This document shows positions 35,811 to 59,302 of a DNA stretch of 64,000 nucleotides, piece after piece (position 1 is the stretch's first letter; each line of letters starts with the position of its first letter). Source of the stretch: Paenibacillus sp. FSL R7-0204 (lineage in GTDB: Bacteria; Bacillota; Bacilli; Paenibacillales; Paenibacillaceae). The position numbers and the translations under genes are program-made. The notes below the pieces were generated by a model. The model had not been told where the DNA came from. It was given only the letters and a program-made list of their open reading frames with translations, and did not search any database. The stretch is from assembly GCF_038002225.1 (NCBI RefSeq), contig NZ_JBBOCA010000001.1:2480001-2544000 (forward strand). The letters are read 5' to 3'.

Positions 35811-38618
35811 ATGGTAGCTACATCCCGGACACACAGAATTCGTAAGCTGACTTCAGCGGTATTAGGTACAGCGCTGCTGGTGACCCTGCTGCCGCAGACA
35901 GCCATGGCCGGAGACACCTGGCCGTTCAAAGGGGAAAGCGCACACGGTGCCAATCAGCCCAGCGTACACGGCTATACCAGCCAGCACATTGCGGACTGGA
36001 GTCCGCAGAGAGATCAGGACGCGGCGCTGCTGCGCTCACGGGTTCCGTTGCAGCAGCGGATTGCACCTTTCCAGCAGACTCAGGCCAATCCGGCGCTGAA
36101 TCCGGCGGTGCAGATGATGAATGTTGCGGGCGATTATGGCAATGCTTTTATCGAGAATGCCCCGTACACCAACAAGTTCGCCCAGTACCACTTCAACTTC
36201 TGGCAGTACATTGACTATTATTCCTACTGGCACGGAACAGCGACAGCGTATACACCGCCGGAATATTACGACGATCTGGCCCAGTCTGACTGGCAGCAGA
36301 AATGGTTCGAGTTCGGCATGCTGAACATTCCGAATCCTACCTATACCGATGCCGCGCATAAGAATGGGGTTATGTCGCTGGCCGGAGTGTTCTTCTCGAA
36401 CAATGACCGGGGACAGCAGACCTATAAGCAGATGATCGTGAAGGACGCGAGCGGGAAGTTCCCGGTAGCCGAGAAAATGATTGAAATGGCCGAATATTTC
36501 GGGTATGACGGGTACTTCCTGAATCAGGAGGAGCAGAATCCGAATGTGGCGACAGCGGATCTTCCCGATTATATTGCTTTTATGAAAGCGCTACAGGATG
36601 GCGGGCTGTATGTGCAGTGGTACGATTCCCTGAATACAGCCACGGGAGCCAATGTCTTCGCCAGAACCTTCAATAACAATAATATCTCCATGCTCTACGA
36701 TAAAGCGGCCCACAAGCCGGTGTCGAATTCGTTTTTCTTCGATTACGGTATGGGCAGCTCGCAGATTACCTCGGCGGCGAATTACTTGAATTCCTTCAAT
36801 GCGGCCCAGGGGACGAGCTACAATCTCTTTGAGACCGGCTTCGCGGGACTTGAAGCCGGGCGCGACCGCTTCAAGAGCGTGCAAGGCTCAGCCTTGAGCA
36901 GCAAGCTGGCCGGGGGAATTCCACGGACCAGCCTGGCGACACTGGGCGCGGACTTTGTCCATGCCGGTCTGGATGAGGATATGAACAAGTCCTGGCCGGT
37001 CTCGAAACGTACGGATAACAACTACCAGTGGATGACGAACCTGCGCGAGCAGCTATGGTGGTCAGGACCACAGGTGAACCCGAAGAATACAGCGGTGTCT
37101 TCCAATAATACGGTAGCCGATGTGTATGCCGATAACCGCTACTGGCCGGGGATTGCTTCGGTTATTGCCGAGCGCTCGGTGGTGAAGGATTCTAACTTCT
37201 ATACTAGCTTCAATACCGGCCACGGCCTCTCTTATTACAAGGATGGAGCGGTATCCAGCGCGGCGGAATGGTCGAATATGAGCCTGCAGGATGTTCCGGT
37301 CACCTGGCAATGGTGGCAGGATACTTCAGGCAACCGTCTGAACGTGGACTTCGATTATGGTCCGGGTTATGACCAGACCGCCAATTCGCGTATGAATTAC
37401 CAGCAGCTTGGCGGTTACAACGGCGGCAGCTCGCTGGCAGTGAGCGGGAATCTGAACAGCGAGAACTTCCTGCGTCTCTACAAGAGCGAGCTTGCCGTGA
37501 AGGCTGGTTCCAAGCTGTCCGTTGTCTACAACAAGCCGTCGGCAGACGATGCCACAGTGCTTAGCGCAGGCCTCATCTTCCGCGATAACCCGAATCAAGT
37601 AGTGAAGATTCCTATTGCGAATAGCGGGAAGCACACCACGGGCTGGACCACGGCCGAGCTTAATCTTGGTGCTTATGCCGGGCGGGAGATTGCGGCTTTC
37701 GGCCTGGTGTTCGCCCCTGGAGCCACTCCAACCGCCAATTACCAGATGAACATCGGCCAGCTGCGGATTCATGACGGCTCGGCGGTCCGGACTGCGGCTC
37801 CTGCCGGTCTCTCTATTGCCCAGGCACTGCCGGGCATGAATGAGATGATCGTGAAGTGGAATATGGACACCGATTACTCCAAGGTGAAGCAATATAATGT
37901 GTACGTGAACGATATCTATATGGGCGGAAAATATGATGAGACCTTCTATATCAAGAAGCTTCCGGCCAAATCCGGCGTGCTGAAGGTGGCGGCTGTAGGT
38001 GCAGACGGGCTTGAGGGCGATCCGGCCACGCTGTCCTTCGACCTGAATGCTGCGGTATCCAAGGTGACTGCCGAATCCGCTGCGAATGGAGACTTCCTGG
38101 TAAAGTGGACGAATCCCGCCGCAGCCCAGGGAAGTATCAAGGTAATAGTGAAGTCGGTGAACTGGACTACCACGCCGCAGCCGGTATCGAAGGAATTGAC
38201 TGTGCTGCAGGGTGCGACCTCAGCGCTGTTCCAGAATATGCCCGTTAACGGAGATGAGTATACGGTTACCGTTCAAGCCGGAAATACCGATAAAATAACC
38301 TATAACGGAACGTTCACCGACAAGGTGTCCGAGCCTTATGCAGAGAACTGGTCCTGGAACGGCAATACGCTGAACCTGCCGATGCCAAGCACCCGGGACT
38401 GGCGGTATATGTACATTAACGAAGACGGCCAGAACCGGTCGTTCCCGGTCACCTATCTGTCCGGTGCTGCGGGCATGAAGCCGATGATCATCCGCGGCCG
38501 CACGACTAAGGCTGCGCTGAGCTTCACCTCTACCGCGGCAACAGTTACAGTGGTCATGGAGGATTACAGCGGCAACAAGTCGCAGCCTGTATACCTTAAA
38601 GGCCAACCAACGCCGTAA
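35811..38618 (+). CDS. secreted endo-beta-N-acetylglucosaminidase, GH85
   Basis: Cuts the chitobiose core of N-glycans and releases the oligosaccharide from glycoproteins. The 935-residue protein has a signal peptide (about 1-33, cleavage after TAMA). The GH85 barrel (about 34-400) carries DGYFLNQE with catalytic Asn238 and Glu240, the Asn/Glu pair used for substrate-assisted catalysis. DTWPFKGESAHGANQPSVHGY and QYHFNFWQYIDYYSYWHG are family landmarks. Later regions are a jelly-roll module (about 520-660) and beta-sandwich Fn3-like modules (about 665-935). There is no LPxTG or SLH anchor, so it is probably released. A terminator follows, then a two-component system. It starts the N-glycan locus. 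Confidence 0.93.
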   Translation: MVATSRTHRIRKLTSAVLGTALLVTLLPQTAMAGDTWPFKGESAHGANQPSVHGYTSQHIADWSPQRDQDAALLRSRVPLQQRIAPFQQTQANPALNPAVQMMNVAGDYGNAFIENAPYTNKFAQYHFNFWQYIDYYSYWHGTATAYTPPEYYDDLAQSDWQQKWFEFGMLNIPNPTYTDAAHKNGVMSLAGVFFSNNDRGQQTYKQMIVKDASGKFPVAEKMIEMAEYFGYDGYFLNQEEQNPNVATADLPDYIAFMKALQDGGLYVQWYDSLNTATGANVFARTFNNNNISMLYDKAAHKPVSNSFFFDYGMGSSQITSAANYLNSFNAAQGTSYNLFETGFAGLEAGRDRFKSVQGSALSSKLAGGIPRTSLATLGADFVHAGLDEDMNKSWPVSKRTDNNYQWMTNLREQLWWSGPQVNPKNTAVSSNNTVADVYADNRYWPGIASVIAERSVVKDSNFYTSFNTGHGLSYYKDGAVSSAAEWSNMSLQDVPVTWQWWQDTSGNRLNVDFDYGPGYDQTANSRMNYQQLGGYNGGSSLAVSGNLNSENFLRLYKSELAVKAGSKLSVVYNKPSADDATVLSAGLIFRDNPNQVVKIPIANSGKHTTGWTTAELNLGAYAGREIAAFGLVFAPGATPTANYQMNIGQLRIHDGSAVRTAAPAGLSIAQALPGMNEMIVKWNMDTDYSKVKQYNVYVNDIYMGGKYDETFYIKKLPAKSGVLKVAAVGADGLEGDPATLSFDLNAAVSKVTAESAANGDFLVKWTNPAAAQGSIKVIVKSVNWTTTPQPVSKELTVLQGATSALFQNMPVNGDEYTVTVQAGNTDKITYNGTFTDKVSEPYAENWSWNGNTLNLPMPSTRDWRYMYINEDGQNRSFPVTYLSGAAGMKPMIIRGRTTKAALSFTSTAATVTVVMEDYSGNKSQPVYLKGQPTP

Positions 38619-38713: not shown

Positions 38714-38763
38714 TCCCGGCTAGCCGTGCCTGCAAGGCTAGCAACTATGTTAGGAGGTGAATG

Positions 38764-40587
38764 ATGCGAAGCCTTTCGCTGTACCGCAAGTATTTTAAAG
38801 ACAATATGTTCCTGCGCTTCACGCTAATCGTGTCCTGTATTTTCATAGCCACCATTATCGCTTTCTCTTATCTGGTGCTGCTGTTAATCTCGGATTCGGC
38901 TGTGCAGCGCCAGATGGATATCCAGCGCAAGAGTATGGAGAGCGTCAGCAACTATGTGGAGAACAAATATCAATCTGTTCAGGATATGCTCCGTGATGTG
39001 TACAGGGACGCGAGTCTAGCCAGTAATACGACCTTCCTGCTGGAGAATCCCTTAAGCGATTATATCGAGCACCGGCTGGACCGCTTTCTTCTGGGAGAAC
39101 AGTCCACCTCGAACGCCATCCAGTATTTCCAGAACAAGATTGACGATGACCCCGATATCCGTGGCCTGATTCTGTACAGCGCCAACCAGCAGGTGATGTA
39201 TTATTATGACAACCGCCGGCAGTTCGAGCGGATCTCGACCAATGCGGCGCATTCTTTTGTCCCCGATTCAATGGTGCTGGGTGAGGAGAGTGTCGTCTCG
39301 GTTCCGAATATCTGGGTGCTGAAAAGTATAGGTATGCCGGCAGCCCCGCTGTTCTCTGTGAAAATACCCATCAATAATAAGTCCTCGCTGCTCAATATCG
39401 GCCAGCTGCTGGTCTACTTCGATTCCGAGGCCATCTGGCAGGCCATGAATAATTATAAGCAGGACTTCAAAGGCGACATCCTTGTGCTCTCGGCCCAGAA
39501 TGAAGTCATCTTCGATTCCTCAGGGAAGGGATACGGCCGGAAGCTGCCGAAGCTGCAAGAAATTAACGCTGGCGAGGAATTTACGATAGAGGGAATGGTC
39601 GTCACGAGTCTGACACAGAGCCAGGCGGGTTATACAGTGGTCAGCCTGATCTCGAAGCAGGAGCTGGCTGAGACCTACAGTAGTGCGCAGAGCACCATTG
39701 TGTCCATCGCACTGGTCTGTATTCTGTTTGCCGTGCTGCTGCCGGCAATGTTCATATCTAATTTTGCCAAACGGACCCACCGCATTATCCGCTTCACCCG
39801 CAAAGTCAAGAACGGGGATCTGAACACCCGGATTGTGGACGGCAAGGAAGATGAATTAGGCCAGATTGCCAAGAGCTTCAACAGCATGCTGGATGAACTG
39901 AACCAATATATCGACCAGGTCTATAAGGCGGAAATCAAACAGAAGCATACGGAGATCGCTACGCTGGAGGCCAGGGTGAATCCGCATTTTCTGTATAATA
40001 CATTAGAGGTTATTCGGATGCGGGCGATTTCGAGCGGGGCGAAGGATGTGGGGGAAATGATCTACAGCCTGTCCATGCTGTTCAAGTCGTACGTCCGTCC
40101 GAAGCTGAAATATACGTTCAAGGATGAGCTGGAGGCCTGCCGCCTGTATCTGGAATTATTCCGTATCCGGTACAAGGACAGGTTCGCGTATACCATCGAA
40201 TGCCGCCCGGAGCTGGAGGAGCTTCCTGTACTCAAAATGTCGCTGCAGCCGGTCATTGAAAACTATGTTCTGCACGGCATGCGGACAGGGCAGACTGATA
40301 ATGTGATCCGTATTGTGATCACAGCGGAGCCGGAGCATATCCGGGTCAGGGTTACGGATAACGGCAAGGGCATTGCGGAGGAGCGGCTGGTCCGGCTCCG
40401 CGAGGTGCTGGAGGATCACGGCGAGTTGTCCGGGTCCGAGTCGTTCGGGCTGCGCAGTATTCATGAGCGGCTGAGACTGATGTACGGCAAGCCCTACGGC
40501 GTAGATCTGGAAAGTGAGGTGGGCACCGGAACAGAGGTTACGATTACTTTTCCATACCCGCTGAAGGAGGAGAACGCAGATGTATAA
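38764..40587 (+). CDS. YesM-type sensor histidine kinase
   Basis: Membrane sensor for an extracellular sugar signal, probably N-glycan fragments by context. Of about 607 residues, helix 1 is at about 18-42, an extracytoplasmic dCache-like domain lies at about 43-290, and helix 2 at about 300-322, followed by HAMP (about 325-375). The His_kinase domain carries EARVNPHFLYNTLEVIRMR with phosphoacceptor His408, and the HATPase part has MSLQPVIENYVLHG, VTDNGKGI and SFGLRSIHERL. Two ATG codons follow AGGAGGTGA; the second gives the better spacing. Its last eight bases (ATGTATAA) overlap the start of the response regulator, so the two are translationally coupled. Confidence 0.92.
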   Translation: MRSLSLYRKYFKDNMFLRFTLIVSCIFIATIIAFSYLVLLLISDSAVQRQMDIQRKSMESVSNYVENKYQSVQDMLRDVYRDASLASNTTFLLENPLSDYIEHRLDRFLLGEQSTSNAIQYFQNKIDDDPDIRGLILYSANQQVMYYYDNRRQFERISTNAAHSFVPDSMVLGEESVVSVPNIWVLKSIGMPAAPLFSVKIPINNKSSLLNIGQLLVYFDSEAIWQAMNNYKQDFKGDILVLSAQNEVIFDSSGKGYGRKLPKLQEINAGEEFTIEGMVVTSLTQSQAGYTVVSLISKQELAETYSSAQSTIVSIALVCILFAVLLPAMFISNFAKRTHRIIRFTRKVKNGDLNTRIVDGKEDELGQIAKSFNSMLDELNQYIDQVYKAEIKQKHTEIATLEARVNPHFLYNTLEVIRMRAISSGAKDVGEMIYSLSMLFKSYVRPKLKYTFKDELEACRLYLELFRIRYKDRFAYTIECRPELEELPVLKMSLQPVIENYVLHGMRTGQTDNVIRIVITAEPEHIRVRVTDNGKGIAEERLVRLREVLEDHGELSGSESFGLRSIHERLRLMYGKPYGVDLESEVGTGTEVTITFPYPLKEENADV

Positions 40588-42097
40588 GGTGTTTATTGTG
40601 GATGATGAGCCGTTCATTCTTAGCGGCCTGCAGGATATATTGGATTGGGAGGAGCTGGGCCTCACGATTGCCGGGCAGGCGGAGAACGGGCAGGAAGCGC
40701 TGGAGCAGCTGCGGGAGATTCCGGCCGATATTCTGATTACCGATATCTCCATGCCGGTGATGACCGGTCTTGAGCTGATCCGCGCCGTCCGGGAATTCCG
40801 CCCGGACATGAAGGTGGTGGTGCTGAGCGGCTTCGATGAATTCATGTATGTGAAGGAAGGCCTGTCACTCGGGATCGAGAACTATCTGCTGAAGCCGATT
40901 AATCTGGAGGAATTCCAGCAGACGCTGGAGACGATTGTGGAGAAGCTGAACGTCTCCAGGCTGGATATGCAGTGGTGGGAATATACGAATTCCGTGCTAA
41001 AGGATAATGTGCTGCTGCGCTGGCTGCGGGGGCAGATTGATCCGCAGGAGCGCTCCGAGCGGCTGAATCTGATCGGTCTGCCGCTCAGCAGCCGTTATGT
41101 GCAGGTTGCCCTGCTACAGGTAGAGCCGGCAACGGATACCTTCAGGAAGAGGGTATCCGATCTGGCTGAGGCCGAGGCTTCGTTCTTCATGTTCTGGGAT
41201 TCGGATAATGATCTGGTGCTGATACATAACTATGAAGAAGTCTCCGCCGGTGCGGCGGAGATGGCGTGCATGCTGGAGGAGATTAACGGCTTATGCACCG
41301 GCGGTGAGAAGCTGCGCTCGGCAGTGGGGTCGCCTGTGTACGGGGGGGACGCCGCTCCTGCAAGCTATGAGCAGGCGAAGCAGGCGCAGGAGTTCCTGGA
41401 GATTCACCCGGAGCGCAGCAGCATCTATTATGAGCAGCTGAGGGACCGGAAGGAGGATCTGGGGTCGGTCCTGCCGGGCGACTGGAGTGATTACGCCAAG
41501 CTCATTATGTCCAAGAATGCGGCGGGGCTGTCGGAGCAGCTGGAGCTATATTTTGCAGCCCCAAGTATGGACGGGTTAACGCCAGCGATGCTGGAGGAGA
41601 TCTCGCTGGAATGGATTCTGTTCTTCCGGGTGCTGATCAAGGATATCCGCAGTGAAACGGAGCGGGAGTGTATTGCGGAGGGCTTGACGGCGATCCGCCG
41701 GGCGAATTCGCTGCCCGCACTGTCCGCTGCGCTCCGGCAGACCTCGGCAGGCATCATCGGGCTGCTGGACCGGGAGCTGAAGAGTCCGGTGGTGAATCAG
41801 GTGCTGAATTATATCGCGAAATCGTACAGTGAGGATCTGTCGCTGAAGAAGCTGGGCTTCATGTTCAACATTCATCCGGTGTATCTGGGACAGCTGTTCC
41901 ATAAGACGACCGGTGAATCGTTTGCGGAATATATGAACCGCTACCGGATCGATAAGGCCAAGGAGCAGCTCCGCTCAACGAACCTGAAGGTTCAGGAGAT
42001 CGCCAGGAATGTAGGGTACTGGGAAATGGGCTATTTCTACAAGCAATTCAAGAAATATGTCGGCATCTCGCCGACGGAATTCAAGGGGCTGCTGTGA
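40580..42097 (+). CDS. YesN-type response regulator with AraC DNA-binding domain
   Basis: Partner of the overlapping kinase gene. The 505-residue protein has a receiver domain (1-125) with acidic DDE at 9-11, phosphoacceptor Asp55 in ILITDISMP and Lys in YLLKPI. A long middle region (about 130-400) is typical of the class. The AraC double helix-turn-helix (about 405-505) includes VVNQVLNYIAKSYSEDLSLKKLGFMFNIHPVYLGQLFHKTTGESFAEYMNRYRIDKAKEQL and VQEIARNVGYWEMGYFYKQFKKYVG. It should activate the importer and glycosidase genes downstream and perhaps the GH85 gene upstream, since similar sequence elements lie before both. Confidence 0.93.
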   Translation: MYKVFIVDDEPFILSGLQDILDWEELGLTIAGQAENGQEALEQLREIPADILITDISMPVMTGLELIRAVREFRPDMKVVVLSGFDEFMYVKEGLSLGIENYLLKPINLEEFQQTLETIVEKLNVSRLDMQWWEYTNSVLKDNVLLRWLRGQIDPQERSERLNLIGLPLSSRYVQVALLQVEPATDTFRKRVSDLAEAEASFFMFWDSDNDLVLIHNYEEVSAGAAEMACMLEEINGLCTGGEKLRSAVGSPVYGGDAAPASYEQAKQAQEFLEIHPERSSIYYEQLRDRKEDLGSVLPGDWSDYAKLIMSKNAAGLSEQLELYFAAPSMDGLTPAMLEEISLEWILFFRVLIKDIRSETERECIAEGLTAIRRANSLPALSAALRQTSAGIIGLLDRELKSPVVNQVLNYIAKSYSEDLSLKKLGFMFNIHPVYLGQLFHKTTGESFAEYMNRYRIDKAKEQLRSTNLKVQEIARNVGYWEMGYFYKQFKKYVGISPTEFKGLL

Positions 42098-42127: not shown

Positions 42128-43132
42128 TTAGCCATGTAATTGTTGGAGAATATAGTTTGAACAATAACTCTCTTTTTCTGAGATGCTTTTTAACAGCCCT
42201 AATATAATTTTTGTATTATCAGGCTTATTTGTAATGTAGTTTTTTAGAATAATGTTTAAGGCGGTTTTAGAATTTTTAACATTACAGGCATAGCTAGTCA
42301 ACAGCTCTTCAGGCAGGTGATGGATGTAACCGTGATTTTGCAAGAACTCAATGCAGCTTTGCTTAAGTAAATGATATTCTTGGATGACATACATATTTCG
42401 GACTACAGAAGAGTGCTCCATTTTGTGTTTTTTGTGAAGATATACATCTTCCAGAAAGGAATAAATAGAATTTCCGTATGCAGCTACATTATGTTCAAGG
42501 CCGAATGTGGAATATTGGTCCTGAGACAAGTTTACGTTATGTTCAAATGAATGATAAATTTTGTCTAAATTAAGATCAAAAATTTGCCCGATATCCAATT
42601 CTAATATGTAGGTGAACCCCGCCCAGCCGTCCGTATACTGGTTATTCACAAGCCCCTCATAAATGGAAGCATACGGAACAAGGTGGGTACAATAAATCAT
42701 CTTATCGTTAAACCCGCAGACCTCAAATTCTTCCTTAAGGTCATCATATCCGTAAATGAATGTCTCGTGTATAAAATGTCTTTTTTGGTAGCTTGATCTG
42801 TTGTTTATATAAAATTCATCCATGAATAAATAAATATATTTCCCGGTGTCAATGTAATGCTTGAAAGTCTGGAGTAAATCTGAAAGGACTAAATCTGTAT
42901 TTTTAATTTTCTCTACGTTCAGTAACGGGTAGGTCTCGGGGTGATCAATTATATTTCCTGTATCAAATACAATGTCCAAGCTGAAATCATGTTCAAACAC
43001 TTTGAGATTTGTAAAATTAGTGTAAATCCAGTTATAGAAGCTGGGGTGAAAGGATGCCACGCTTAACGGAAAAGCATTATACAAATGTCCCCGAATCATT
43101 GGTTTTTGAATAGGCAGTATGTTTGCGTTCAA
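42128..43132 (-). CDS. BtrH/C39-like protein, orphan, AT-rich
   Basis: A 334-residue soluble protein. I recognise only the general pattern of BtrH_N-type proteins found near non-ribosomal peptide or ribosomal peptide clusters, in particular YIYLFMDEFYINNRSSYQKRHFIHE and FIYGYDDLKEEFEVCGF, which resemble a cysteine-protease-derived fold. The catalytic residues of a true C39 peptidase are not evident. Base composition is strongly AT-rich (TTT, AAA and ATA codons common), unlike the flanking sugar genes, and it lies on the opposite strand between the two-component pair and the importer. The start is TTG at 43132, nine bases after GGTGGAG. An earlier ATG is rejected because a TATAAT -10 lies inside that stretch. 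Confidence 0.7.
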   Translation of the reverse strand: MNANILPIQKPMIRGHLYNAFPLSVASFHPSFYNWIYTNFTNLKVFEHDFSLDIVFDTGNIIDHPETYPLLNVEKIKNTDLVLSDLLQTFKHYIDTGKYIYLFMDEFYINNRSSYQKRHFIHETFIYGYDDLKEEFEVCGFNDKMIYCTHLVPYASIYEGLVNNQYTDGWAGFTYILELDIGQIFDLNLDKIYHSFEHNVNLSQDQYSTFGLEHNVAAYGNSIYSFLEDVYLHKKHKMEHSSVVRNMYVIQEYHLLKQSCIEFLQNHGYIHHLPEELLTSYACNVKNSKTALNIILKNYITNKPDNTKIILGLLKSISEKESYCSNYILQQLHG

Positions 43133-43171
43133 TTTGCAATTCTCCACCTTTCTGTAAGCCATTGTCCTAAT

Positions 43172-43177
43172 ATTATA
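43172..43177 (-). promoter_or_regulatory. -10 element of the BtrH-like gene
   Basis: TATAAT on the minus strand, 40 bases before the TTG start. The -35 region is poor. It supports the downstream start codon. Confidence 0.5.
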
Positions 43178-43233
43178 CAGCATATATTTGGAAAAAGGTG
43201 GAGCGGTTTTTCTTTGTAAGCAGCGAATTAGTA

Positions 43234-43295
43234 TAGTCTTTCTTTATTTCATACCTGAAAATATATAGTTTTTCTTCTATTTGAAACTGCTTTCA
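43234..43295 (+). promoter_or_regulatory. repeats and cre-like site before the sugar-binding protein gene
   Basis: TAGTCTTTCTTTATTT at 43234 and TAGTTTTTCTTCTATTT at 43266 are near-copies 32 bases apart, candidate binding sites of the YesN regulator. TGAAACTGCTTTCA (43282-43295) matches the CcpA consensus except for one central position. TATAAA follows closely at about 43300. Confidence 0.4.
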
Positions 43296-43391: not shown

Positions 43392-44897
43392 ATGAGTAAG
43401 AAAAAGAAACACTTCTCCTTGTTGTTGACAACGCTTTTAACCGTTTCACTGGCGCTAACGGCGTGCGGGGGGAACAGTAAGAACAATGCAGGCGGGGAAG
43501 CAGCTTCAGGCGGCAACAAAGCCTCGGAGGCTACCGAAAAGCCAGTAGAGCTGATCTGGTACACGATTGGGCCACCGCAGAAAGATATGGACAAGGTGCT
43601 CACAGAAGTCAATAAATACACACTTGAGAAAATCAACGCCACACTGAATATCAAAATGATCGACTTCGGCGACTATACACAAAAAATGCAGGTTATGGCA
43701 GCTTCCGGTGAGCCGATGGATATCCTGTTCACCTCTTCCTGGGCCTTCGATTATGTGCAGAATGCACGTAAGGGTGCCTTCCTGCAGCTTGATGATCTGC
43801 TGAAGAATCAGGGCAAGGGCATTGTGGATACGATTGATCCGGCTTTCCTGGAAGGCTCCAAGGTAGACGGTCACAACTATGCGATTCCTGCGAACAAAGA
43901 GCTTCCGGCTCAAGAGGTGTTCCGCTTCAACAAAGAGCTGCTCGACAAATACAAGCTGGATCTGACCAGCGTGAAGACGATGGCCGACCTGGAGCCGCTG
44001 CTCAAAACCATCAAGGAAAACGAGCCTGGAATCACTCCCTATGCGATGGTTAAGGACTTCATGCCGATCATGCCTTTTGACTATGTGATTGAGAAGATGC
44101 CGATGGCTGTCTATATGGACACCAAGGACTACAAAGTGGTCAACATCCTGGAAACTCCAGAGATCAAGGAAGCGCTTAAGACCGTCCGCAAATTCTATCA
44201 GGCTGGCTACATCTCTCCTGAAGTAGCGACTATAAGCTCGGTAGATGACCTGTACAAATCGGGTAAATGGTTCACCGATCGCGCCTCGACCCAGCCGCTG
44301 GCTGACAATTTGTGGTCCGCCAGCTATGGTTATCCAGTCGTGTCGACTCCAGCCAGTAAGCCTTATATCTACAACTGGTCCGTAATGGGTTCCATGCAGG
44401 CTATCTCGGCTAACTCCGCGTATCCTGAGAAAGCGATGGAATTCCTGAACCTGCTGAACACAGATCCTAAGCTGCGCAATATGATTGACTCCGGGATCGA
44501 AGGTGTGCATTACGAAAAAATTAGTGAGAATATGATGAAGAATCTGCCAGACGCGAAGAACTATGATATGTCAACGTTCTCCTTGGGCAACATCATGATT
44601 ACCTATCTGAATGAAGGCGACCCTGAGAACAAATGGGAAGAATTCAAGAAGTTCAATGATGCCGGTATCAACGCACCGCTGCTCGGCTTCAACTTCGATA
44701 CGTCCAAGGTGACGAATGAAATCGCCGCTGTTCAGAACGTGAAGGAAGAATTCTGGGCACCGCTGATGACCGGATCTGTAGATTCGGAAGAATACCTGAC
44801 CAAGGCTAACGAGAAATTGAAGGCTGCCGGTCTGGATAAAATTATTGCCGAAGCTCAAACACAGATCGACGCCTGGAAAGCAGCGAATAATAAGTAG
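43392..44897 (+). CDS. ABC transporter substrate-binding lipoprotein (DUF3502 type)
   Basis: The extracellular receptor for the oligosaccharide importer of the N-glycan locus. Of 501 residues, the signal peptide MSKKKKHFSLLLTTLLTVSL ends with lipobox LTAC and Cys25 is the lipid-modified residue. A Gly/Asn/Ser-rich tether (26-50) follows. The mature domain starts PVELIWYTIGPPQKDMDKVLTEVNKYTLEKINA and runs as SBP family 1 with a DUF3502-type C-terminal part (about 350-500). A terminator-like hairpin separates it from the two permease genes, a common way to keep binding protein in excess. No ATPase gene is present; such importers borrow a shared MsmK/MsmX-type ATPase. Confidence 0.92.
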   Translation: MSKKKKHFSLLLTTLLTVSLALTACGGNSKNNAGGEAASGGNKASEATEKPVELIWYTIGPPQKDMDKVLTEVNKYTLEKINATLNIKMIDFGDYTQKMQVMAASGEPMDILFTSSWAFDYVQNARKGAFLQLDDLLKNQGKGIVDTIDPAFLEGSKVDGHNYAIPANKELPAQEVFRFNKELLDKYKLDLTSVKTMADLEPLLKTIKENEPGITPYAMVKDFMPIMPFDYVIEKMPMAVYMDTKDYKVVNILETPEIKEALKTVRKFYQAGYISPEVATISSVDDLYKSGKWFTDRASTQPLADNLWSASYGYPVVSTPASKPYIYNWSVMGSMQAISANSAYPEKAMEFLNLLNTDPKLRNMIDSGIEGVHYEKISENMMKNLPDAKNYDMSTFSLGNIMITYLNEGDPENKWEEFKKFNDAGINAPLLGFNFDTSKVTNEIAAVQNVKEEFWAPLMTGSVDSEEYLTKANEKLKAAGLDKIIAEAQTQIDAWKAANNK

Positions 44898-49220: not shown

Positions 49221-52200
49221 ATGGAGCAGATACACATCGAACGGATTAACCGGTTCATCCGGGAATGCTCACAGCAGCAGTGGCTGGAATACCGGGTGCT
49301 TGACGACTGGAAAGTCTTCTCCACCATCTACCGGCAGCCGGGACACTATGACGAAGCACAGCCTTATTCGGGCAGTGAAGCGTTCGGATTGTTTCCGAGT
49401 GTGCAAGGCACCACCTATTACTTCCGCACTACCCTGGATATCCCGGCGGACTGGACCGATGCGGACACCGGGCTGATCTTCCACTCCGGCGGCGAAGGGC
49501 TGTTGCGTGTGAACGGAGCCTCGCGGCAGGGGATTGACCGCAATCATACCTATGCTTCCCTGAATCCTCAGACGGGCGGCAGACACCCGGAGATTGAGAT
49601 TGAGCTCTATGATCCGATCCCTGAGCCGGATGATCCGCTGAATAAGCAGGCGGTCATTCAGCCGCCGGTCCGGTCGATCACCGCAGCGCTGGTCAGAGTG
49701 AATCTGCCTGTACAGTCGCTGATGTATACAGTGACCGTCATCCGGGATTCGATGCTGCTGTTGCCGGAGCAGGATTTCCGGCGTGTCCGTATGCTGGAGG
49801 CGCTGCATCAGGCGATGGATGCTTATGTGAATTTGGGACCTGCAGGCGCGGCGGACAGCAGCGGAATACAGGTGATTGAGCAGGAACTGGTGGCAAAAGT
49901 GAAGGCCATCGGCGGCAACAGTGAGGGCTTCATTCATATGATCGGGCAGTCGCATATCGACATCGCCTGGTTATGGCCTACCCGGGAGACGGTGCGCAAG
50001 ACCAGCCGGACCTTCTCAAGCGTACATGCCCTGATGGAGGAGTACCCGGAATACCGCTATGCCCAGAGCCAGCCGCAGCTGTTCGCTTATCTGAAGGACA
50101 ATGATCCAGAATTATATGAGAAGGTGAAGGCACGGATTCAGGAAGGCCGGTGGGAGCTGGTCGGCGGCATGTGGGTTGAGCCGGATCTGAATATTCCCAG
50201 CGGGGAATCCCTGATGCGGCAGATGCTGTACGGGCAGCGGTTCTACCAGGAGGAGTTCGGACAGCAGTCCGAGATTGAATGGCTGCCGGATACCTTCGGC
50301 TATTGCGCTTCCCTGCCGCAGATCCTGAAGCACGGCAAGGTCCGTTACTTCATGACCACGAAGCTCGGCTGGAATGACACGAACCTGTTCCCGTATGACC
50401 TGTTCCACTGGGTCGGCATCGACGGGACAGCGCTATTATCTTATATGAACCATGGCGTGAATGAGAATACGCTGCCGAAGGATATCCATGAGCACTGGCA
50501 GTCCTATCGCCAAAAAGCCGTTCACAGCGAGCAAATGCTGCTCTACGGACACGGGGACGGCGGCGGCGGCGTGACGAGGGAGATGCTGGAATACCTGTCG
50601 CGCTCGGAGCTGATGGTGGGTCAGCCTGCCTCCGGCTACAGCACGGCGGCAGATTTCTTCGCCGGGATCGAGCAGGCTGCACCTGAGTTGCCGGTCTGGC
50701 AGGGCGACCTCTATCTGGAGCTGCACCGGGGAACCTATACCACCCATGCGCGGAACAAACGCAATAACCGCAAGGCCGAGATTCTGTACCGGGAAGCTGA
50801 GCTATGGCAGACCCTTACAGGACACCAGTTGACACCGCAGCGGCGGGAAGAGGTAGGGCAAGCGCTGCATGAAGGCTGGAAGCTGATTCTGCTCAACCAG
50901 TTCCATGATATTATCCCTGGCTCGTCGATTCCCGAGGTCTATGAGACTTCGGACAAGGAATACAAGAACATCTTCATCCTTGGGGAGAGCAGCCTGAAGT
51001 CCGTCATGGAGGCTGCCGTATCAGCTATTGATACCCGTGGAGAGGGACAGCCTTATGTCATCCTGAACGGACTGGGCTGGACACGGGATATGGTGGCCCA
51101 GCTTGCGGTTGCTCCAGGAGTAGAGCTTACCCATCCGGCTGTATATGACGGGAACGGAACACGGCTTCCGGCAGAGCTGACTACAGCAGGAAAGCAAACG
51201 GTGCTCCGTGTGCGGGTGCCGGAGGTGCCGGCTTTCGGGTATGTAACCGTGTGGCTGCGGGAAGAGGAGCAGCAGGGGGCAAACGCATCGGATGCAGGCA
51301 ATAACTCAATCTCTGCGGCGAAATCCGCTATGTTCGATGACCGCTGGGAGACCGGCTACTACCAGCTCCAGTTCAACGAGCTGGGCGAGATCATCAGCCT
51401 GTATGACAAGGAAGCCGGACGTGAGATTGTGAAGTCCGGGGAAGCGTTGAACCGGCTGCATTTCTTCCATGACCGGCCGATTCTATGGGATGCCTGGGAT
51501 ATTGACAGCCGGTATGAGGAGCAGCCTGCCGGAGCAGCGGTGCTGCTGGAGAAGCGGCTGCTCTCCACAGGACCGGTCTGCGATGTACTGTTCTTCCGCT
51601 GGAGTCTAGGCCAATCGGAAATACAGCAGGAGCTGATCCTGTACCACACCGACAAGCGGATCGACTTCAAGACGAAGGTTCAGTGGCACGAAGCCCACAA
51701 GCTGCTGAAGGTTGGCTTCCCGATTGATGTAGTGACCAGCAGGGCCACATATGAGATTCCGTTCGGCGCACTGGAGCGGACTACGCACCGCAACACCAGC
51801 TGGGAGCAGGCACAGTACGAGGTCTGCGGTCACCGGTATGCCGATGTGTCGGAGCATGACTATGGCGTCAGCCTGCTGAACGACTGCAAATACGGCTACG
51901 ACACGCAGGGCAGCACCATCCGTCTGTCCCTGCTGCGCGCTCCGCGCTGGCCGGATCATTCAGCGGATCAGGGAGAGCATGAATTCACCTATTCGCTCTA
52001 CCCGCATACCGGAGACTGGCGTTCGGCGCATACCCAGCGCAAGGCCGCTGAGTTGAATCACGCTTCCTGCGCGGTAGCCTGCGAGGCAAGTGCAGGGCAG
52101 CATCCGTCCACCGGTTCTTTCCTTCCCTACGAAGGGAAGCAGGTAGTACTGGATACCGTCAAGCTGGCGGAAGATGGACGCGGCAGTATCCTGCGGCTGT

Positions 52201-52379
52201 ACGAATCAGCCGGTGGACGTGAGACGGTACGGATCAACTGGCCGCTGCCGCACTCCGCTCTCTATCTGTCCAATGCACTGGAGGAAGAGACTGAGCTGCT
52301 GCCGGATGAAGACGGCGTGCTGACGCTGACCTTCCATCCGTTCGAGATCAAGACGATTAAGATCATTCATGCTGGATAG
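49221..52379 (+). CDS. GH38 alpha-mannosidase, long (Ams1-like) type
   Basis: Removes alpha-mannose from imported glycans in the cytoplasm. The 1052-residue protein has an N-terminal beta-domain (about 1-230) not found in the MngB-like GH38 proteins of this window. GQSHIDIAWLWPTRET carries zinc ligands His245 and Asp247. EWLPDTFGYCASLPQIL carries the nucleophile Asp357 (also a zinc ligand), and NQFHDIIPGSSIPEVYE the last ligand His. The C-terminal half is the beta-sandwich of the family. It begins three bases after the GH3 stop and so is co-transcribed with it. The domain arrangement resembles yeast vacuolar Ams1 and its bacterial relatives. Linkage preference is unknown. Confidence 0.92.
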   Translation: MEQIHIERINRFIRECSQQQWLEYRVLDDWKVFSTIYRQPGHYDEAQPYSGSEAFGLFPSVQGTTYYFRTTLDIPADWTDADTGLIFHSGGEGLLRVNGASRQGIDRNHTYASLNPQTGGRHPEIEIELYDPIPEPDDPLNKQAVIQPPVRSITAALVRVNLPVQSLMYTVTVIRDSMLLLPEQDFRRVRMLEALHQAMDAYVNLGPAGAADSSGIQVIEQELVAKVKAIGGNSEGFIHMIGQSHIDIAWLWPTRETVRKTSRTFSSVHALMEEYPEYRYAQSQPQLFAYLKDNDPELYEKVKARIQEGRWELVGGMWVEPDLNIPSGESLMRQMLYGQRFYQEEFGQQSEIEWLPDTFGYCASLPQILKHGKVRYFMTTKLGWNDTNLFPYDLFHWVGIDGTALLSYMNHGVNENTLPKDIHEHWQSYRQKAVHSEQMLLYGHGDGGGGVTREMLEYLSRSELMVGQPASGYSTAADFFAGIEQAAPELPVWQGDLYLELHRGTYTTHARNKRNNRKAEILYREAELWQTLTGHQLTPQRREEVGQALHEGWKLILLNQFHDIIPGSSIPEVYETSDKEYKNIFILGESSLKSVMEAAVSAIDTRGEGQPYVILNGLGWTRDMVAQLAVAPGVELTHPAVYDGNGTRLPAELTTAGKQTVLRVRVPEVPAFGYVTVWLREEEQQGANASDAGNNSISAAKSAMFDDRWETGYYQLQFNELGEIISLYDKEAGREIVKSGEALNRLHFFHDRPILWDAWDIDSRYEEQPAGAAVLLEKRLLSTGPVCDVLFFRWSLGQSEIQQELILYHTDKRIDFKTKVQWHEAHKLLKVGFPIDVVTSRATYEIPFGALERTTHRNTSWEQAQYEVCGHRYADVSEHDYGVSLLNDCKYGYDTQGSTIRLSLLRAPRWPDHSADQGEHEFTYSLYPHTGDWRSAHTQRKAAELNHASCAVACEASAGQHPSTGSFLPYEGKQVVLDTVKLAEDGRGSILRLYESAGGRETVRINWPLPHSALYLSNALEEETELLPDEDGVLTLTFHPFEIKTIKIIHAG

Positions 52380-52666: not shown

Positions 52667-53986
52667 TTGGAACAATTCAGACTTCCCCGCATTGAGATGC
52701 CGGAGCTTGCGCTGACGTCATCCATTCAGGCCGTGCTGGCCGACGCCGAAGTGAAGCTGGCTCACCGGCCCAAGCTTCAGCGCCTGTTCCGCAACTGCTT
52801 CCCGAATACACTGGAGACCACTACCAAGCTGCTTGATGACGGAACCACCTTTGTCATTACGGGGGACATTCCTGCTTGCTGGCTGCGCGATTCGGTGGAG
52901 CAGGTCATTCATTATGTGCCTTTTGCCGCGGAAGATGCTGACCTGCAGCGGATTATCGGCGGGCTGATCAAGCGCCATACAGAGTATGTGCTGATCGATC
53001 CTTACGCCAACGCGTTCAATGAATCCGCCAATGACTGGCACTGGAATGCTGCCGATGTGACGGAGATGTCGCCTTGGGTGTGGGAGCGCAAATTCGAGAT
53101 CGACTCGCTGTGCTTCGTGATCCGGCTGGCCCATGCTTACTGGGAAGAGACGAAGCAGACCGGCTTCTTCACCGCCGATTTCAAAAAAATGCTGCGCGTC
53201 ATCACCGACCTGTTCAAGCGCGAGCAGCATCATGCCGAGAAGTCCCCGTACCGCTTCACGCGGAACAACGGGATTATGGAGGATTCCATCCGTAACGGCG
53301 GCTTAGGGATGCCTGTGAATTATACCGGCATGATCTGGTCCGGCTTCCGCTCCAGTGATGACGCCTGCGATTTCCATTACAACATTCCGGGGAATATGTT
53401 CGCTGTGGTGGCGCTGCGGCAGATGCAGGATTTTGCCGAGTGGGTCTTCCGGGATCTGGATTTCCTCGCCGAGCTGAAGGAGCTGGAGCAGGAGGTCGAT
53501 CACGGCATCAAGCTGTACGGCATCTACCGCCACCCGGAATTCGGGCCGATCTACGCCTACGAGACGGACGGGTACGGCAACTATAGCCTGATGGATGACG
53601 CCGGAACGCCGGGCCTGATGTCCATTCCATACCTGGGCTATTTGAACAATGATGATCCGGTCTACCAGAATACGAGACGGTTTGCGCTAAGCAAGGAGAA
53701 TCCGTTCTACTTTGAGGGCAAAGCCGCCAAGGGAATCGGCAGTCCGCATACTCCTCGGGGCTACATCTGGCATATGGCCTTGTCGATGCAAGGCATTACG
53801 GCAGACAGCAAGGAAGAGCGGCTGGCGGTGATCGCCATGCTGGAAGCGACCGATGCCGATACCGGCTATATGCATGAAGGCTTCCACGCCGATGATCCGT
53901 CCGTGTTCACCCGCAAGTGGTTCGCCTGGTCGAACAGCTTGTTCTCACAGCTTATTTTGCGGGCGCTGAAGGAAGGCATTCTCTAA
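52667..53986 (+). CDS. GH125 exo-alpha-1,6-mannosidase
   Basis: A 439-residue cytosolic enzyme of family GH125, known for exo-alpha-1,6-mannosidase activity on N-glycan cores. The (alpha/alpha)6 barrel shows the family landmarks [89 protein letters not shown] and the late [18 protein letters not shown] and [26 protein letters not shown]. The start is TTG, eleven bases after GAAGGAG. It precedes the GH130 gene by about 40 bases. In pneumococci a GH125 works beside GH38 and GH85 on imported glycans, supporting the proposed pathway. Confidence 0.94.
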
Positions 53987-55029: not shown

Positions 55030-57768
55030 ATGACCACAAAACAGACGGCACATATTATCTCACATACGCACTGGGACCGGGAATGGTATCTGCCTTATGA
55101 ACGCCATCACATCCGGCTGATCCAGCTCGTGGACACGCTGCTGGACACACTGGAGCAGAACCCGGACTTCCGCAGCTTCTTCTTCGACGGGCAGACGATT
55201 ATCATCGAGGATTATCTTCAGGTCCGTCCGGAGAACCGGGAGCGGCTGGTACGGCAGATCCGTGAGGGACGGATTTACATCGGACCTTGGTACATTCTGC
55301 AGGATGCTTATCTCACCAGCCCGGAGGCCAATGTGCGTAACTTACAGCTAGGACATCAGGATGCGGCAGTCTATGGGGAAGTGTCCAAAATCGGTTATTT
55401 CCCGGACACCTTCGGCCTGACCGGACAGATTCCGCAGCTCATGCAGCAGGCCGGCATCACTAACGCCTTCTTCGGGCGCGGAGTGAAGCCGACAGGCTTC
55501 AACAATATGGTCTCCGATGACGGCTATGAATCCTCGTTCTCGGAGCTGGTCTGGGAAGGGCCGGACGGCTCGCAGGTACTGGGTATCCTGTTCGCCAACT
55601 GGTATTCTAACGGGAATGAGGTTCCCGTTGAGATGGATGAAGCCCGCCGTTTCTGGGAGCGCAAGCTGGGCGATGCCCGGCAGTATACAGCGACTGATCA
55701 GCTGCTGTTCATGAACGGCTGCGATCACCAGCCGCTGCAGACCGACTTGCCGGAGGCGATCCGCACAGCAGAGAAGCTGCACCCGGAGGTCTCCTTCGTT
55801 CATTCCAACTTCCCGGATTATATTAAGGCAGTGGAAGCTTCACTGGCTGGCCGCACCTTGTCCACGGTAAAGGGCGAGCTGCGGAGCCAGCGCACGGACG
55901 GTTGGGGGACGCTGGTCAATACTGCTTCCGCCCGGGTATATCTGAAGCAGCTCAACCAACGCGGCCAGTCACTGCTGGAGAAGGTAGCCGAGCCGCTGGC
56001 GGTTATCGCGGGGCTGCATGGCGGGGAGTATCCGCATCATCTACTGGATTATGCGTGGAAGACGCTGCTGCAGAACCATCCGCATGATTCCATCTGCGGC
56101 TGCAGCGTGGATGAGGTGCACCGCGAGATGGTTACCCGCTTCGACAAGAGTTATCACACGGCCGAAGGCATCGTTGCAGATAGTATGGAGGCGATCACCG
56201 CAGCGGTGGACACCTCCGGCTTCGCCGCTTACGGCGAAGAGGCCCTTCCGCTTGTTGTAACCAATACCAGCGGCTGGAGCCGTACCGGTACGGTGACCGT
56301 GGAGCTGGATGCAGCCCGCCAGTATCTGCGCGACGGGCTGTCTCTTGAAGAGAATGCCCGGTTGATGAAAGCCGTAGACCTAGCCGGACGGGTCCTGGTC
56401 GATGAGCAGGGCCAGCCGATTCCTTGTACGGTAGAGGATCTTGGCCTGTCCTTCGGCTATGATCTGCCGGATGACCGCTTCCGCCAGCCGTATAGCTGCC
56501 GCAAGGTGCGGCTGACCTTCGAGGCGGCGGAGGTGCCTGCCCTGGGGCTGCGCACCTATGCCTGGGTTCGCCCTCTTGGGGCGGCTGCCGCTGAAGAAGT
56601 CTCCTCGCTGGTTCACGGCGCGCGCGTGCTGGAGAACGATACCCTGCGGGTCGAGGTTATGGCTGACGGCTCCTTCACGCTGGAGCATAAGCCAAGCGGC
56701 AAGCTCTACCAGGGCCTCGGTGTCTACGAGAACACAGGTGACATCGGGAACGAATATATGTACAGACAGCCTGCGGGCGAAGTGCCGCTGACGACTCTCG
56801 GCCTTAACGCGGATATCGCTGTTATTGAAGATACGCCATACCGTGCTTCCATCGAAATCACTCATGAATGGGAGATTCCGGCTTCAGCCGATGACCTGCT
56901 GGAAGAAGAACAGCGGGCGCTGGTCTATTATCCAGAGCGGCTGGCGCAGCGTGCTGCCGCCACGGTAACCTTGAAGCTGCGGACTGTCTTAAGACTGGAG
57001 CGCAGCGGCAAAGGACTGGAAGTGAAGAGTTATATCGATAATACGGCTAAAGACCACCGTCTGCGGATGCTGTTCCCTGCGGATCTGGCCGCAGCCTCAC
57101 ACCGCGTGGATTCGATGTTCGAGCTGGCGGAGCGTCCGAACGAGCCCGCGCCGGAATGGCAGAATCCAAGTAATGCGCAGCATCAGCAGTGCTTCGTGGA
57201 TGTTACGGGGGAGAACGCAGGCCTAACGGTTGCTAACCTCGGATTACACGAATACGAGATTCTGCGGGATGGCCGCAATACGATCGCCGTTACGCTGCTC
57301 CGCAGTGTTGGCGAGATGGGTGACTGGGGTTGGTTCCCTACACCGGAAGCCCAGTGCCTGGGAGAGCAAACAGCAGATCTGCTGCTTCTTCCGCATAGCG
57401 GGGATGCTGTAACCTCCGGTGCCGCTGCTGCTGCTTACCAGTTCCAGATTCCGTGGACCTGCGCGCAGGCAGAGGTTCATACCGGGACGATTCCCGCCGT
57501 GTATTCGGCCGTCCGCTGGAACGGCAGGACCGCTGCCTTCTCCTCCATGAAGCTGAACAAAGAGCGCGGCGATGTGCTGCTCCGCTGGTTCAACATGACG
57601 GGCGAGTCCTGTATACTGGAGCTGGAACCAGCGCTTCCGGCTGCCGCCATCTATACTTCAAATGTACTGGAAACAGAAGGTGAAGAGCTTCAGCTAGAAG
57701 GAGCCGCTTCGCTGAAGCTTCCGCTTGGCGGACATGAGATTACAACGGTTGGTATCCGGCTGAGCTAA
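55030..57768 (+). CDS. GH38 alpha-mannosidase (MngB-like)
   Basis: A 912-residue cytosolic alpha-mannosidase and close paralogue of the truncated protein at the left edge of the window. The N-terminus SHTHWDREWYLPYERHH carries zinc ligands (His14 and Asp16), YFPDTFGLTGQIPQLMQQAG the nucleophile Asp126, and NHPHDSICGCSVDEVHREM the last zinc ligand. The beta-sandwich region runs from about 400 to the end. It is of the shorter class without the N-terminal domain seen in the neighbouring 1052-residue GH38. Two GH38 enzymes of different type suggest cleavage of different alpha-linkages. The start follows the GH130 gene by seven bases, so translation is probably coupled. Confidence 0.93.
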   Translation: MTTKQTAHIISHTHWDREWYLPYERHHIRLIQLVDTLLDTLEQNPDFRSFFFDGQTIIIEDYLQVRPENRERLVRQIREGRIYIGPWYILQDAYLTSPEANVRNLQLGHQDAAVYGEVSKIGYFPDTFGLTGQIPQLMQQAGITNAFFGRGVKPTGFNNMVSDDGYESSFSELVWEGPDGSQVLGILFANWYSNGNEVPVEMDEARRFWERKLGDARQYTATDQLLFMNGCDHQPLQTDLPEAIRTAEKLHPEVSFVHSNFPDYIKAVEASLAGRTLSTVKGELRSQRTDGWGTLVNTASARVYLKQLNQRGQSLLEKVAEPLAVIAGLHGGEYPHHLLDYAWKTLLQNHPHDSICGCSVDEVHREMVTRFDKSYHTAEGIVADSMEAITAAVDTSGFAAYGEEALPLVVTNTSGWSRTGTVTVELDAARQYLRDGLSLEENARLMKAVDLAGRVLVDEQGQPIPCTVEDLGLSFGYDLPDDRFRQPYSCRKVRLTFEAAEVPALGLRTYAWVRPLGAAAAEEVSSLVHGARVLENDTLRVEVMADGSFTLEHKPSGKLYQGLGVYENTGDIGNEYMYRQPAGEVPLTTLGLNADIAVIEDTPYRASIEITHEWEIPASADDLLEEEQRALVYYPERLAQRAAATVTLKLRTVLRLERSGKGLEVKSYIDNTAKDHRLRMLFPADLAAASHRVDSMFELAERPNEPAPEWQNPSNAQHQQCFVDVTGENAGLTVANLGLHEYEILRDGRNTIAVTLLRSVGEMGDWGWFPTPEAQCLGEQTADLLLLPHSGDAVTSGAAAAAYQFQIPWTCAQAEVHTGTIPAVYSAVRWNGRTAAFSSMKLNKERGDVLLRWFNMTGESCILELEPALPAAAIYTSNVLETEGEELQLEGAASLKLPLGGHEITTVGIRLS

Positions 57769-57799
57769 TCCAGGCGAAGAAGGAAGAGGTGAGAAAAGT

Positions 57800-59302
57800 A
57801 TGGGGATGGATATGGATGAACCATTAGATCGGCAAGCCTCCAATAACGGCCCGCTTACCGGTGTACAGCAGCAGATTGCGGCGGTAGCCGGGGGACAATG
57901 GCGCTTGTCTGCCGGGTTCAAAGCGCGAATTGTGGACAATGCGAGATCGGATAATAACAGTGTTCTGAACGAAACAGTCTTTAGGGTTCTGGGCCAATTC
58001 TCGGGCATTCTGACACCCTCTGACCAGATCATCGCTGTTGTTCATGGAGAAACGGAGAATCCTGCTTCGGGCGATATCGTCATTGAACTGACAGATCTTG
58101 AAGCTGCGGGAGACTTGGACAGCCAGGAAGCTTACGTCATTGAAATCGGGACTTATGTGAAGATCACTGCGCCAAGTGAACGGTCTGTGATGTACGGTCT
58201 GTGGACATTGCTGCAGCAGCTCGCAGATGACGGCTCCGTGCCCTGCGGCACCATCACCGATTACCCCGCCATGCGGGAGCGGGCGCTGCACATCGACATT
58301 GGCCGCAAATTCTACAGCGAAGACTGGCTCCTGGAGCGGATCAGAGAGATGTCCCGGCTGCGGCTGAATACGCTACAGCTGCATTTCTCCGAGAACGAGG
58401 GCTTCCGGCTGATGAGCGAGAGCCATCCTGAGGTGGTGTCGGAGCAAGCTTTAACCAAGCAGGAAATGAAGGCGATTATCCTTGAGGCACAGCGTTATCA
58501 TGTGGATATTATCCCTTCACTGGATTCACCGGGGCATCTGGGACAGGCGCTCCGTACTCATCCCGAGTGGCTGCTCAAGGATGCTTCGGGAGCCACGGCT
58601 CCGGGTGCGCTGGATATTACGAATCCGGCAGCCCGCCGGTTCGTGCTGGAGTTGATTGACGAATACGCCGAGTTATTTGCCGGCAGCCGCTATTTTCATA
58701 TTGGCGGGGATGAATTCATCAACTTCGCGGAGTTCGATAAGTATCCGCAGCTCGCGGAGTATGCCCGGAATGTGCTGAACATCAGCGAAGGCACGGGCGT
58801 GGACACTTATATTGATTACCTTAACGAGGTTGCAGAACATCTGGAGTCGAAGGGCTGGACCGTCCGTGCCTGGAATGATGGCCTCTACCGTGCAGATCAG
58901 ATCCAGCGGGTCGCGCCTAAGCCATCCATTCAGATCACATATTGGACGAAGTGGCACCCGATGATGGCCCCGGTGGAAGACATTCTCGCCAAGGGGCATC
59001 AGGTGATCAACTACAACGACGGCTACTTGTATTACGTGCTGGGCGAACATGCAGGCTACACGTATCCGACAGCCGAGAAAATCCGCGCCTCCTGGCATCC
59101 CGGCCTGTTCCCGGCCCGTACCGGGGAAGCTAAGCAGGAATACACGGGAGCCTATCCGCGCGAACTCATCGGCACCACCTTCTCCATCTGGAGCGATAAG
59201 CCGGAAGCGCAGACCGAAGCGGAAGTGGTGGCAGGCCTGCGCGGCCCGCTGCGGGCGATGGCGGAGCTGGCTTGGCTGGGGAAGAAGGATGCGGCTGAGT
59301 AG
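57800..59302 (+). CDS. GH20 beta-N-acetylhexosaminidase
   Basis: Removes terminal GlcNAc or GalNAc. The 500-residue protein has a GH20b-type N-terminal domain (about 15-150) and the catalytic barrel (about 153-495). The family acid pair is Asp304-Glu305 in YFHIGGDEF, which supports substrate-assisted catalysis. LHIDIGRKFYSEDWLLERIREMSRLRLNTLQLHFSENEGFR and IIPSLDSPGHLGQAL are further landmarks. There is no signal peptide, so it acts on imported sugars and could remove GlcNAc from complex-type antennae. It is the last gene of the N-glycan locus and is followed by a strong terminator. GAGGTGAG precedes the ATG. Confidence 0.92.
   Translation: MGMDMDEPLDRQASNNGPLTGVQQQIAAVAGGQWRLSAGFKARIVDNARSDNNSVLNETVFRVLGQFSGILTPSDQIIAVVHGETENPASGDIVIELTDLEAAGDLDSQEAYVIEIGTYVKITAPSERSVMYGLWTLLQQLADDGSVPCGTITDYPAMRERALHIDIGRKFYSEDWLLERIREMSRLRLNTLQLHFSENEGFRLMSESHPEVVSEQALTKQEMKAIILEAQRYHVDIIPSLDSPGHLGQALRTHPEWLLKDASGATAPGALDITNPAARRFVLELIDEYAELFAGSRYFHIGGDEFINFAEFDKYPQLAEYARNVLNISEGTGVDTYIDYLNEVAEHLESKGWTVRAWNDGLYRADQIQRVAPKPSIQITYWTKWHPMMAPVEDILAKGHQVINYNDGYLYYVLGEHAGYTYPTAEKIRASWHPGLFPARTGEAKQEYTGAYPRELIGTTFSIWSDKPEAQTEAEVVAGLRGPLRAMAELAWLGKKDAAE

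Follow-up and report, generated by a model that had tools for sequence, protein, structure and literature searches.

According to the available sections of three publications, Streptococcus pneumoniae possesses a GH85 enzyme (EndoD), the transporter components NgtS-P1-P2 (ABCNG), a carbohydrate-processing locus and an activating two-component system of the YesMN type, TCS07 (PMC5215778, PMC7075642, PMC11034029). The window analyzed here, a stretch of 64,000 nucleotides from Paenibacillus sp. FSL R7-0204, contains at positions 35811-59302 a gene run that shares with this pneumococcal system the GH85, an NgtS-type binding protein with two permeases, GH38, GH125, GH20, and a YesMN-type pair. Judging from its sequence, it is very probably the Paenibacillus version of an N-glycan utilisation regulon of the streptococcal kind. 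It differs from S. pneumoniae in that GH85 lies inside the same gene run, a GH130 would perform the Man-GlcNAc step and a GH3-GH38 cassette has been added, while no GH92, GH29 or ROK gene is present within the locus. The overall plan is already known from streptococci, as far as the sections available go (PMC5215778, PMC7075642), and the joining of an ATP-binding cassette importer with a two-component activator, by which an earlier note on this DNA had set the locus apart from a Bacteroides PUL, is described there too. Different here are a candidate operator, a slot occupied by either GH130 or an uncharacterised protein of about 1050 residues (X0), and a GH3-GH38 cassette whose genes tend to be present or absent jointly.

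Open reading frame calls and Pfam matches agree that the twelve genes named in the earlier note are all located on the + strand in the order given there. Secretion was judged by inspecting the translations by eye, without a signal-peptide program; GH85 displayed a secretion signal, a lipobox (LTAC) was seen in the binding protein, and a signal was absent in each of the last six enzymes (GH3 to GH20), as the note had said. Gene content, family placement, synteny and the presence and specificity of the operator element were observed directly, and for each substrate and the ligand sensed we infer the following scheme. GH85 would cut the chitobiose core extracellularly, and the NgtS-type lipoprotein and the two permeases would import Man(n)GlcNAc with energy from an ATPase encoded elsewhere. 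GH20 would trim terminal GlcNAc, alpha-mannose would be stripped by an Ams1-type GH38, an SpGH38-type GH38 and GH125, GH3 may take off a cap in beta linkage, which could be the core beta-1,2-xylose, and GH130 would phosphorolyse Man-beta-1,4-GlcNAc to Man-1-P and GlcNAc. YesM/YesN would sense the glycan and activate two promoters, one for GH85 and one for the importer-plus-enzymes genes, via an operator with two half-sites.

A neighbourhood search across relatives, as suggested by the earlier note, covered the order of the host, where a GH125 match was present in 287 of 392 genomes. From the matches listed, 57 GH125 loci in 55 genomes were selected, mostly by rank plus some lower-ranked ones, and an NgtS-type protein was encoded beside GH125 in 50 of them, an association of importer and GH125 that is more than chance. 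In 55 of 61 named streptococcal loci fetched, the genes for two permeases and NgtS were consecutive, and in 15 of 16 streptococcal maps examined GH125 and GH38 were also found within about 11 kb; genes were split or missing in two streptococcal loci (L172 and L174).

Comparison of the stretches upstream of GH85 and binding-protein genes among close relatives revealed a candidate operator element composed of CTTTAWTT, 22-24 bases and CTTCTATT, 39-40 bases in all. Operator 1, before GH85, contains an exact direct repeat of CTTTAATTT with a 20-base period, and in operator 2, before the binding-protein gene, the second half-site is degenerate. Such half-site spacing would suit an AraC-type regulator, and YesN is the likely candidate for the protein that binds the element. 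The 7.7 Mb genome of the host contains only two matches to the pattern, those before GH85 and the binding-protein gene, and none to the reversed pattern. A longer form of the pattern gave 97 matches in 91 of the 392 genomes, and its reversed control gave none. Ninety-one of these matches are located on the same strand as GH125 and 3.6-18 kb upstream of it, at distances of 3.6-3.8 kb (7), 9.0-10.0 kb (77) or 15.8-17.9 kb (7), with none elsewhere on those contigs; the remaining six, for which the stretches were fetched, stand before a binding-protein gene (5) or GH85 (1). As the longer pattern had been built from loci already read, only the 56 matches that fall in 56 genomes not viewed before the pattern was made constitute an independent check, and of these six were fetched and 50 were placed by their distance to GH125.

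When up to two mismatches were allowed, 47 of the 50 binding-protein genes had the element upstream, as did 15 of 16 GH85 genes; elsewhere it was found before GH125 (1 of 57), the second GH38 (1 of 52), permease 1 (0 of 50), GH3 (0 of 42) and the kinase (0 of 12, a small sample because many kinases sit at region ends). At this stringency there were 80 real matches versus nine in shuffled sequences, the control being one shuffle per locus that kept base composition alone. Since the element stands before both GH85 and the binding-protein gene, and hardly anywhere else, GH85 and the importer-plus-enzymes genes appear to form one regulon made up of two units.

In streptococci, a tolerance of up to four mismatches gave matches in 37 of 58 permease 1 promoters and in 12 of 33 GH125 upstream stretches; their positions vary among the matches listed and they were counted as no match. 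A conserved stretch with TGTAAACGTTATCA is present upstream of permease 1 in the streptococcal loci L115-L175, and this TGTAAACGTTATCA stretch resembles a CcpA cre site. As regards pneumococcal RR07, the available text of a 2020 study reports that no site was found (PMC7075642), and a 2024 study put forward CTWWWWWWAG as a candidate (PMC11034029). Like that candidate, the Paenibacillus half-site starts with CT followed by A/T bases.

Among the proteins assigned to release, sensing and import, GH85 is the sole member of its family in the genome; EndoD (2w91) is its nearest solved chain, and the N-x-E motif, to which a functional role is ascribed, is retained in the alignment. A YesMN-type pair is adjacent, as Pfam matches show, and the pattern search places the shared element before GH85 and the importer; the dCache_1 match of the sensor kinase reached 20.8 bits, under the cut-off of 45. 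When pneumococcal NgtS was compared with the genome of the host, the window protein was on top of 19 match rows with 271.8 bits and 38% identity, the runner-up obtaining 226.1 bits, and the nearest solved entries of the binding protein are those of NgtS (5swa/5swb).

Several observations weigh against a regulon of this kind. Three of the 50 binding-protein genes and one of the 16 GH85 genes are without the element even at two mismatches, the longer form has no match in 21 of the 55 genomes surveyed for their GH125 loci, and upstream of the streptococcal importer the full element was not detected. The same genome contains 18 other NgtS-like match rows, and Trp386 and Trp81 of NgtS are both replaced by Phe, with aromatic residues at these positions in other aligned binding proteins too; as a paralogue from another importer has aromatics at both, the NgtS contact residues do not discriminate specificity. 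If such importers are common, as the 18 further rows indicate, GH85, the regulators, the importer and the enzymes might be chance neighbours serving different substrates. However, the importer stands beside GH125 in most of the surveyed loci and one element is found at these promoters only, so that we consider this explanation scarcely credible. The earlier note's proposal of one system for release, sensing, import and dismantling of the glycan is upheld by the NgtS-type binding protein, the grouping of GH130, synteny and the shared candidate operator.

The slot adjoining GH125 was occupied by GH130 in 33 and by X0 in 22 of the 57 loci, never by both. The GH130 of the window scored 522 bits with UHGB_MP, 488 with 5ayd and 426 with TM1225, and no more than 125 with other GH130 chains, and by sequence group it falls in subfamily 2, that of Man-GlcNAc and manno-oligosaccharide phosphorylases. 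For X0, one of two aligners places the fold nearest to a GH164 beta-mannosidase, whereas Foldseek places a beta-1,2-glucosyltransferase first. Compared with the GH164 enzyme Bs164, X0 is extended at its N-terminus by about 350 residues, and the likeness, at 13% identity, is a fold match only. X0 is often annotated as beta-galactosidase, labels that may be wrong because the gene context suggests a beta-mannosidase. X0 has relatives in 225 of the 392 genomes, some of which have GH130 in the locus (e.g. G123, G157 and G356), and genomes with both refute a genome-wide exclusion, which holds within the locus only; the genome of the host gave no X0 match. The fewest changes in the slot on a tree were three, which is not a firm minimum as 18 of 55 inner branches are open. 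The use of GH130 or X0 in one slot would set phosphorolysis against hydrolysis in a comparison provided by nature. Each of the GH125 loci L098 and L103 has two GH29-like genes, with GH130 and X0 both absent, and L103 additionally shows a Cache-AraC regulator.

Of the 50 loci with a binding-protein gene, 41 encode GH3 along with the Ams1-type GH38, 8 encode neither and 1 encodes just GH38; considering all 57 loci, 14 are without GH3 and GH38, and six of these, some on short contigs, are without an NgtS-type protein at the cut-off. The best two solved chains for GH3 are named beta-xylosidase and xylosidase. With NF052329, a model for beta-xylosidase/alpha-L-arabinosidase, GH3 obtained 596 bits, which is under the curated 1050 but the best score among seven models, the next, a glucosidase model, being 36 bits lower. 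A relative of GH3 with 45% identity elsewhere in the phylum (L198) is located in a xylan locus with GH115, GH10 and GH43-like genes; this is the only xylan locus among three contexts of GH3 relatives read outside the order of the host, the others containing sugar-transport and isomerase-like genes (L197) or being uninformative (L196).

From these data, the scope 'high-mannose', which the earlier note had given to the locus, is probably too narrow, since it leaves the beta-xylosidase-like GH3 without a role. A locus dedicated to high-mannose N-glycans, in which the Ams1-type GH38 replaces the pneumococcal GH92 in its alpha-1,2 role and GH3 and GH20 are accessory, would agree with the position of GH92 outside the locus and with an Ams1-type GH38 that could handle alpha-1,2 bonds, and in Bifidobacterium longum three GH38s and GH125 process high-mannose glycans, as described in the text available (PMC10154615). 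We regard it as rather doubtful, because the gene for GH3 co-occurs with that for the Ams1-type GH38 and because, beyond the core Man/GlcNAc bonds, such glycans offer GH3 no beta-linked sugar. According to the accessible part of another study, plant N-glycans lose their core beta-1,2-xylose to a Bacteroides GH3 once the alpha-1,3-mannose is gone (PMC9522356). Xylose on the beta-mannose must probably leave before GH130 or X0 acts, and this, together with the Bacteroides precedent and the xylosidase-like GH3, suggests plant-type glycans as a substrate alongside high-mannose ones.

A second mannoside locus of the same genome (L194, C1:1182000-1201900) encodes GH125 and GH38 opposite to an importer, a GH3 (67% to that of the window), an Ams1-type GH38 and another GH130, with transposase genes on both sides; the operator element and GH85 are absent from it. 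A set of GH38, GH125 and a beta-xylosidase-like GH3 would be suited to alpha-mannans that carry xylose. The system might thus serve fungal or yeast mannoprotein or xylomannan, that is, mannan oligosaccharides, maybe beta-xylosylated, with GH85 being incidental, and the existence of a GH3-GH38-GH130-GH125 locus without GH85 in the same genome speaks for it. We nevertheless think this improbable, as the element is common to GH85 and the importer, GH130 belongs to the Man-GlcNAc group, Pfam gave no match to GH76 or GH99 among the locus genes, and the importer is of the NgtS type, the pneumococcal member of which buries a single reducing-end GlcNAc (PMC5215778). Our more specific proposal, of a regulon for plant-type (xylosylated) N-glycans, operated by an ATP-binding cassette importer and a two-component switch, in which the cassette takes away core beta-1,2-xylose as well as hindered mannose, the element is the control code, and X0, cleaving the final Man-GlcNAc bond in sister loci, is a clan GH-A beta-mannosidase of unassigned family that was swapped with phosphorolysis more than once, is put forward tentatively, as a serious possibility. 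In another genome (L195, G032:C1:248500-268400), genes for a GH29 fucosidase, importer permeases, GH3, an Ams1-type GH38 and a xylose-isomerase-like protein occur in a row and could be a plant N-glycan set.

The remaining intracellular enzymes were compared with solved chains. The two GH38s differ in kind, the first being nearest to Ams1 and the second to 3lvt (850 bits) and 2wyh (825 bits). GH125 obtained 524 bits with 2nvp, which one entry names alpha-1,6-mannosidase. For GH20 the nearest solved chains are lacto-N-biosidases, an activity that would match the lacto-N-biose antennae mentioned for plant glycans in the text available (PMC10154615). In an alignment from which columns were taken by hand, with residue roles from the accessible part of PMC8004761, GH20 retains His263 and Asp467 of LnbB, and Gln190, Glu216 and Asn259 of subsite -2 are replaced by Arg, His and Asp, respectively. 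The assignment as lacto-N-biosidase was dropped, and GH20 is probably an exo-beta-N-acetylhexosaminidase by its sequence.

The earlier note had called the locus self-contained and described its genes as standing in order on one strand. The first statement goes too far, as Pfam matched no importer ATPase or sugar-kinase family among the genes of 35811-59302, and the genome's one GH92 gene is about 122 kb off in a separate locus (about 2.392 Mb), its one GH29 gene being at a distance of about 2.35 Mb. The second is correct for the twelve genes and overlooks an AT-rich open reading frame on the minus strand (42128-43183; Table 1). Its GC content by codon position is 0.40/0.24/0.40, compared with 0.45-0.66/0.33-0.44/0.63-0.75 in the twelve genes, within the survey of 57 loci it was seen in the G075 locus and no other, and a search of 5.8 billion proteins gave three relatives, its own protein counted among them. 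It looks like an insertion and is probably not part of the system; its 5' side faces operator 2 (43242-43281), and it may therefore share or disturb this promoter region.

Table 1. Positions in the window of the twelve genes, the intervening open reading frame (ORF) and the two candidate operators.
Feature	Position	Strand	Evidence or remark
GH85, secreted endo-beta-N-acetylglucosaminidase, 935 aa	35811..38618	+	PF03644, 161 bits
YesM-type sensor kinase	38761..40587	+	Pfam: weak dCache, HAMP, His_kinase, HATPase_c
YesN-type response regulator, receiver and AraC-type HTH	40580..42097	+	Pfam
AT-rich orphan ORF, 351 aa, between regulator and importer	42128..43183	-	no Pfam match
NgtS-type DUF3502 lipoprotein, predicted glycan-binding subunit	43392..44897	+	PF12010, PF01547; 5swa/5swb, E 6e-80
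Importer permease 1 (NgtP1-like)	44989..45915	+	PF00528; 363-374 bits for its streptococcal counterpart (15 maps)
Importer permease 2 (NgtP2-like)	45945..46862	+	PF00528; streptococcal maps
Cytoplasmic GH3, beta-xylosidase-like	46924 (likely start)..49218	+	Pfam GH3 domains
Cytoplasmic GH38, Ams1 type (putative broad alpha-mannosidase)	49221..52379	+	Pfam; Ams1 chains best
Cytoplasmic GH125, predicted exo-alpha-1,6-mannosidase	52667..53986	+	PF06824, 516 bits
GH130, predicted Man-beta-1,4-GlcNAc phosphorylase (subfamily-2 type)	54025 (likely start)..55023	+	PF04041
Cytoplasmic GH38, SpGH38 type (putative alpha-1,3-mannosidase)	55030..57768	+	Pfam; 3lvt, 2wyh
Cytoplasmic GH20, probably exo-beta-N-acetylhexosaminidase	57800..59302	+	PF00728
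Candidate operator 1, CTTTAATT-N23-CTTCTATT	35659..35697	+	~114 bases 5' of GH85
Candidate operator 2, CTTTATTT-N24-CTTCTATT	43242..43281	+	~111 bases 5' of binding-protein gene

Other genes of the window and genome were also inspected. A ROK-family gene (22734-23765, minus strand, 47.8 bits), possibly for a sugar kinase or regulator, is located beside a major facilitator superfamily transporter gene about 12 kb upstream of GH85. The genes at 27626-32223 were considered as a GlcNAc phosphotransferase system, a reading that was dropped because the alpha-amylase-family enzyme, EIIBCA and UTRA regulator resemble a trehalose set, which we presume them to be. They are followed by two GH43 genes (32523-35038), and GH43 genes also precede GH85 in close relatives. 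Around the only GH92 (L200, C1:2384000-2399000) lie a PL8 lyase gene and one for a GH88-like protein, along with two-component genes and a DUF3502 importer belonging to that locus.

Within the literature searched, no publication on N-glycan use or on this type of locus in Paenibacillus was found. The element makes the regulon testable and traceable across genomes, and if the assignment to plant glycans is true, the locus would illustrate a way in which Gram-positive soil bacteria may feed on plant glycoproteins. Operons of B. longum and Cutibacterium acnes are alike in having GH38 alpha-mannosidases and cleavage of the Man-GlcNAc bond (PMC10154615, PMC6160142). The available text describes the GH38 of C. 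acnes as cytoplasmic and 30% identical to Ams1, with sugar ATP-binding cassette transporter genes nearby, and does not describe a YesMN pair for either operon (PMC10154615, PMC6160142); C. acnes cuts the Man-GlcNAc bond with a GH5_18 and not with GH130 or X0. Plant N-glycan loci of Bacteroides massiliensis and relatives, as far as covered by the text available, resemble the Paenibacillus locus by their GH3 beta-1,2-xylosidase and by GH130 near some PNGase genes (PMC9522356). They differ from it by SusC/D pairs, PNGase, GH92 in place of GH38/GH125 and a GH3 predicted to be periplasmic (PMC9522356), and no SusC/SusD pair was among the Pfam matches of the Paenibacillus locus, where GH3 is probably a cytoplasmic enzyme that would act after import.

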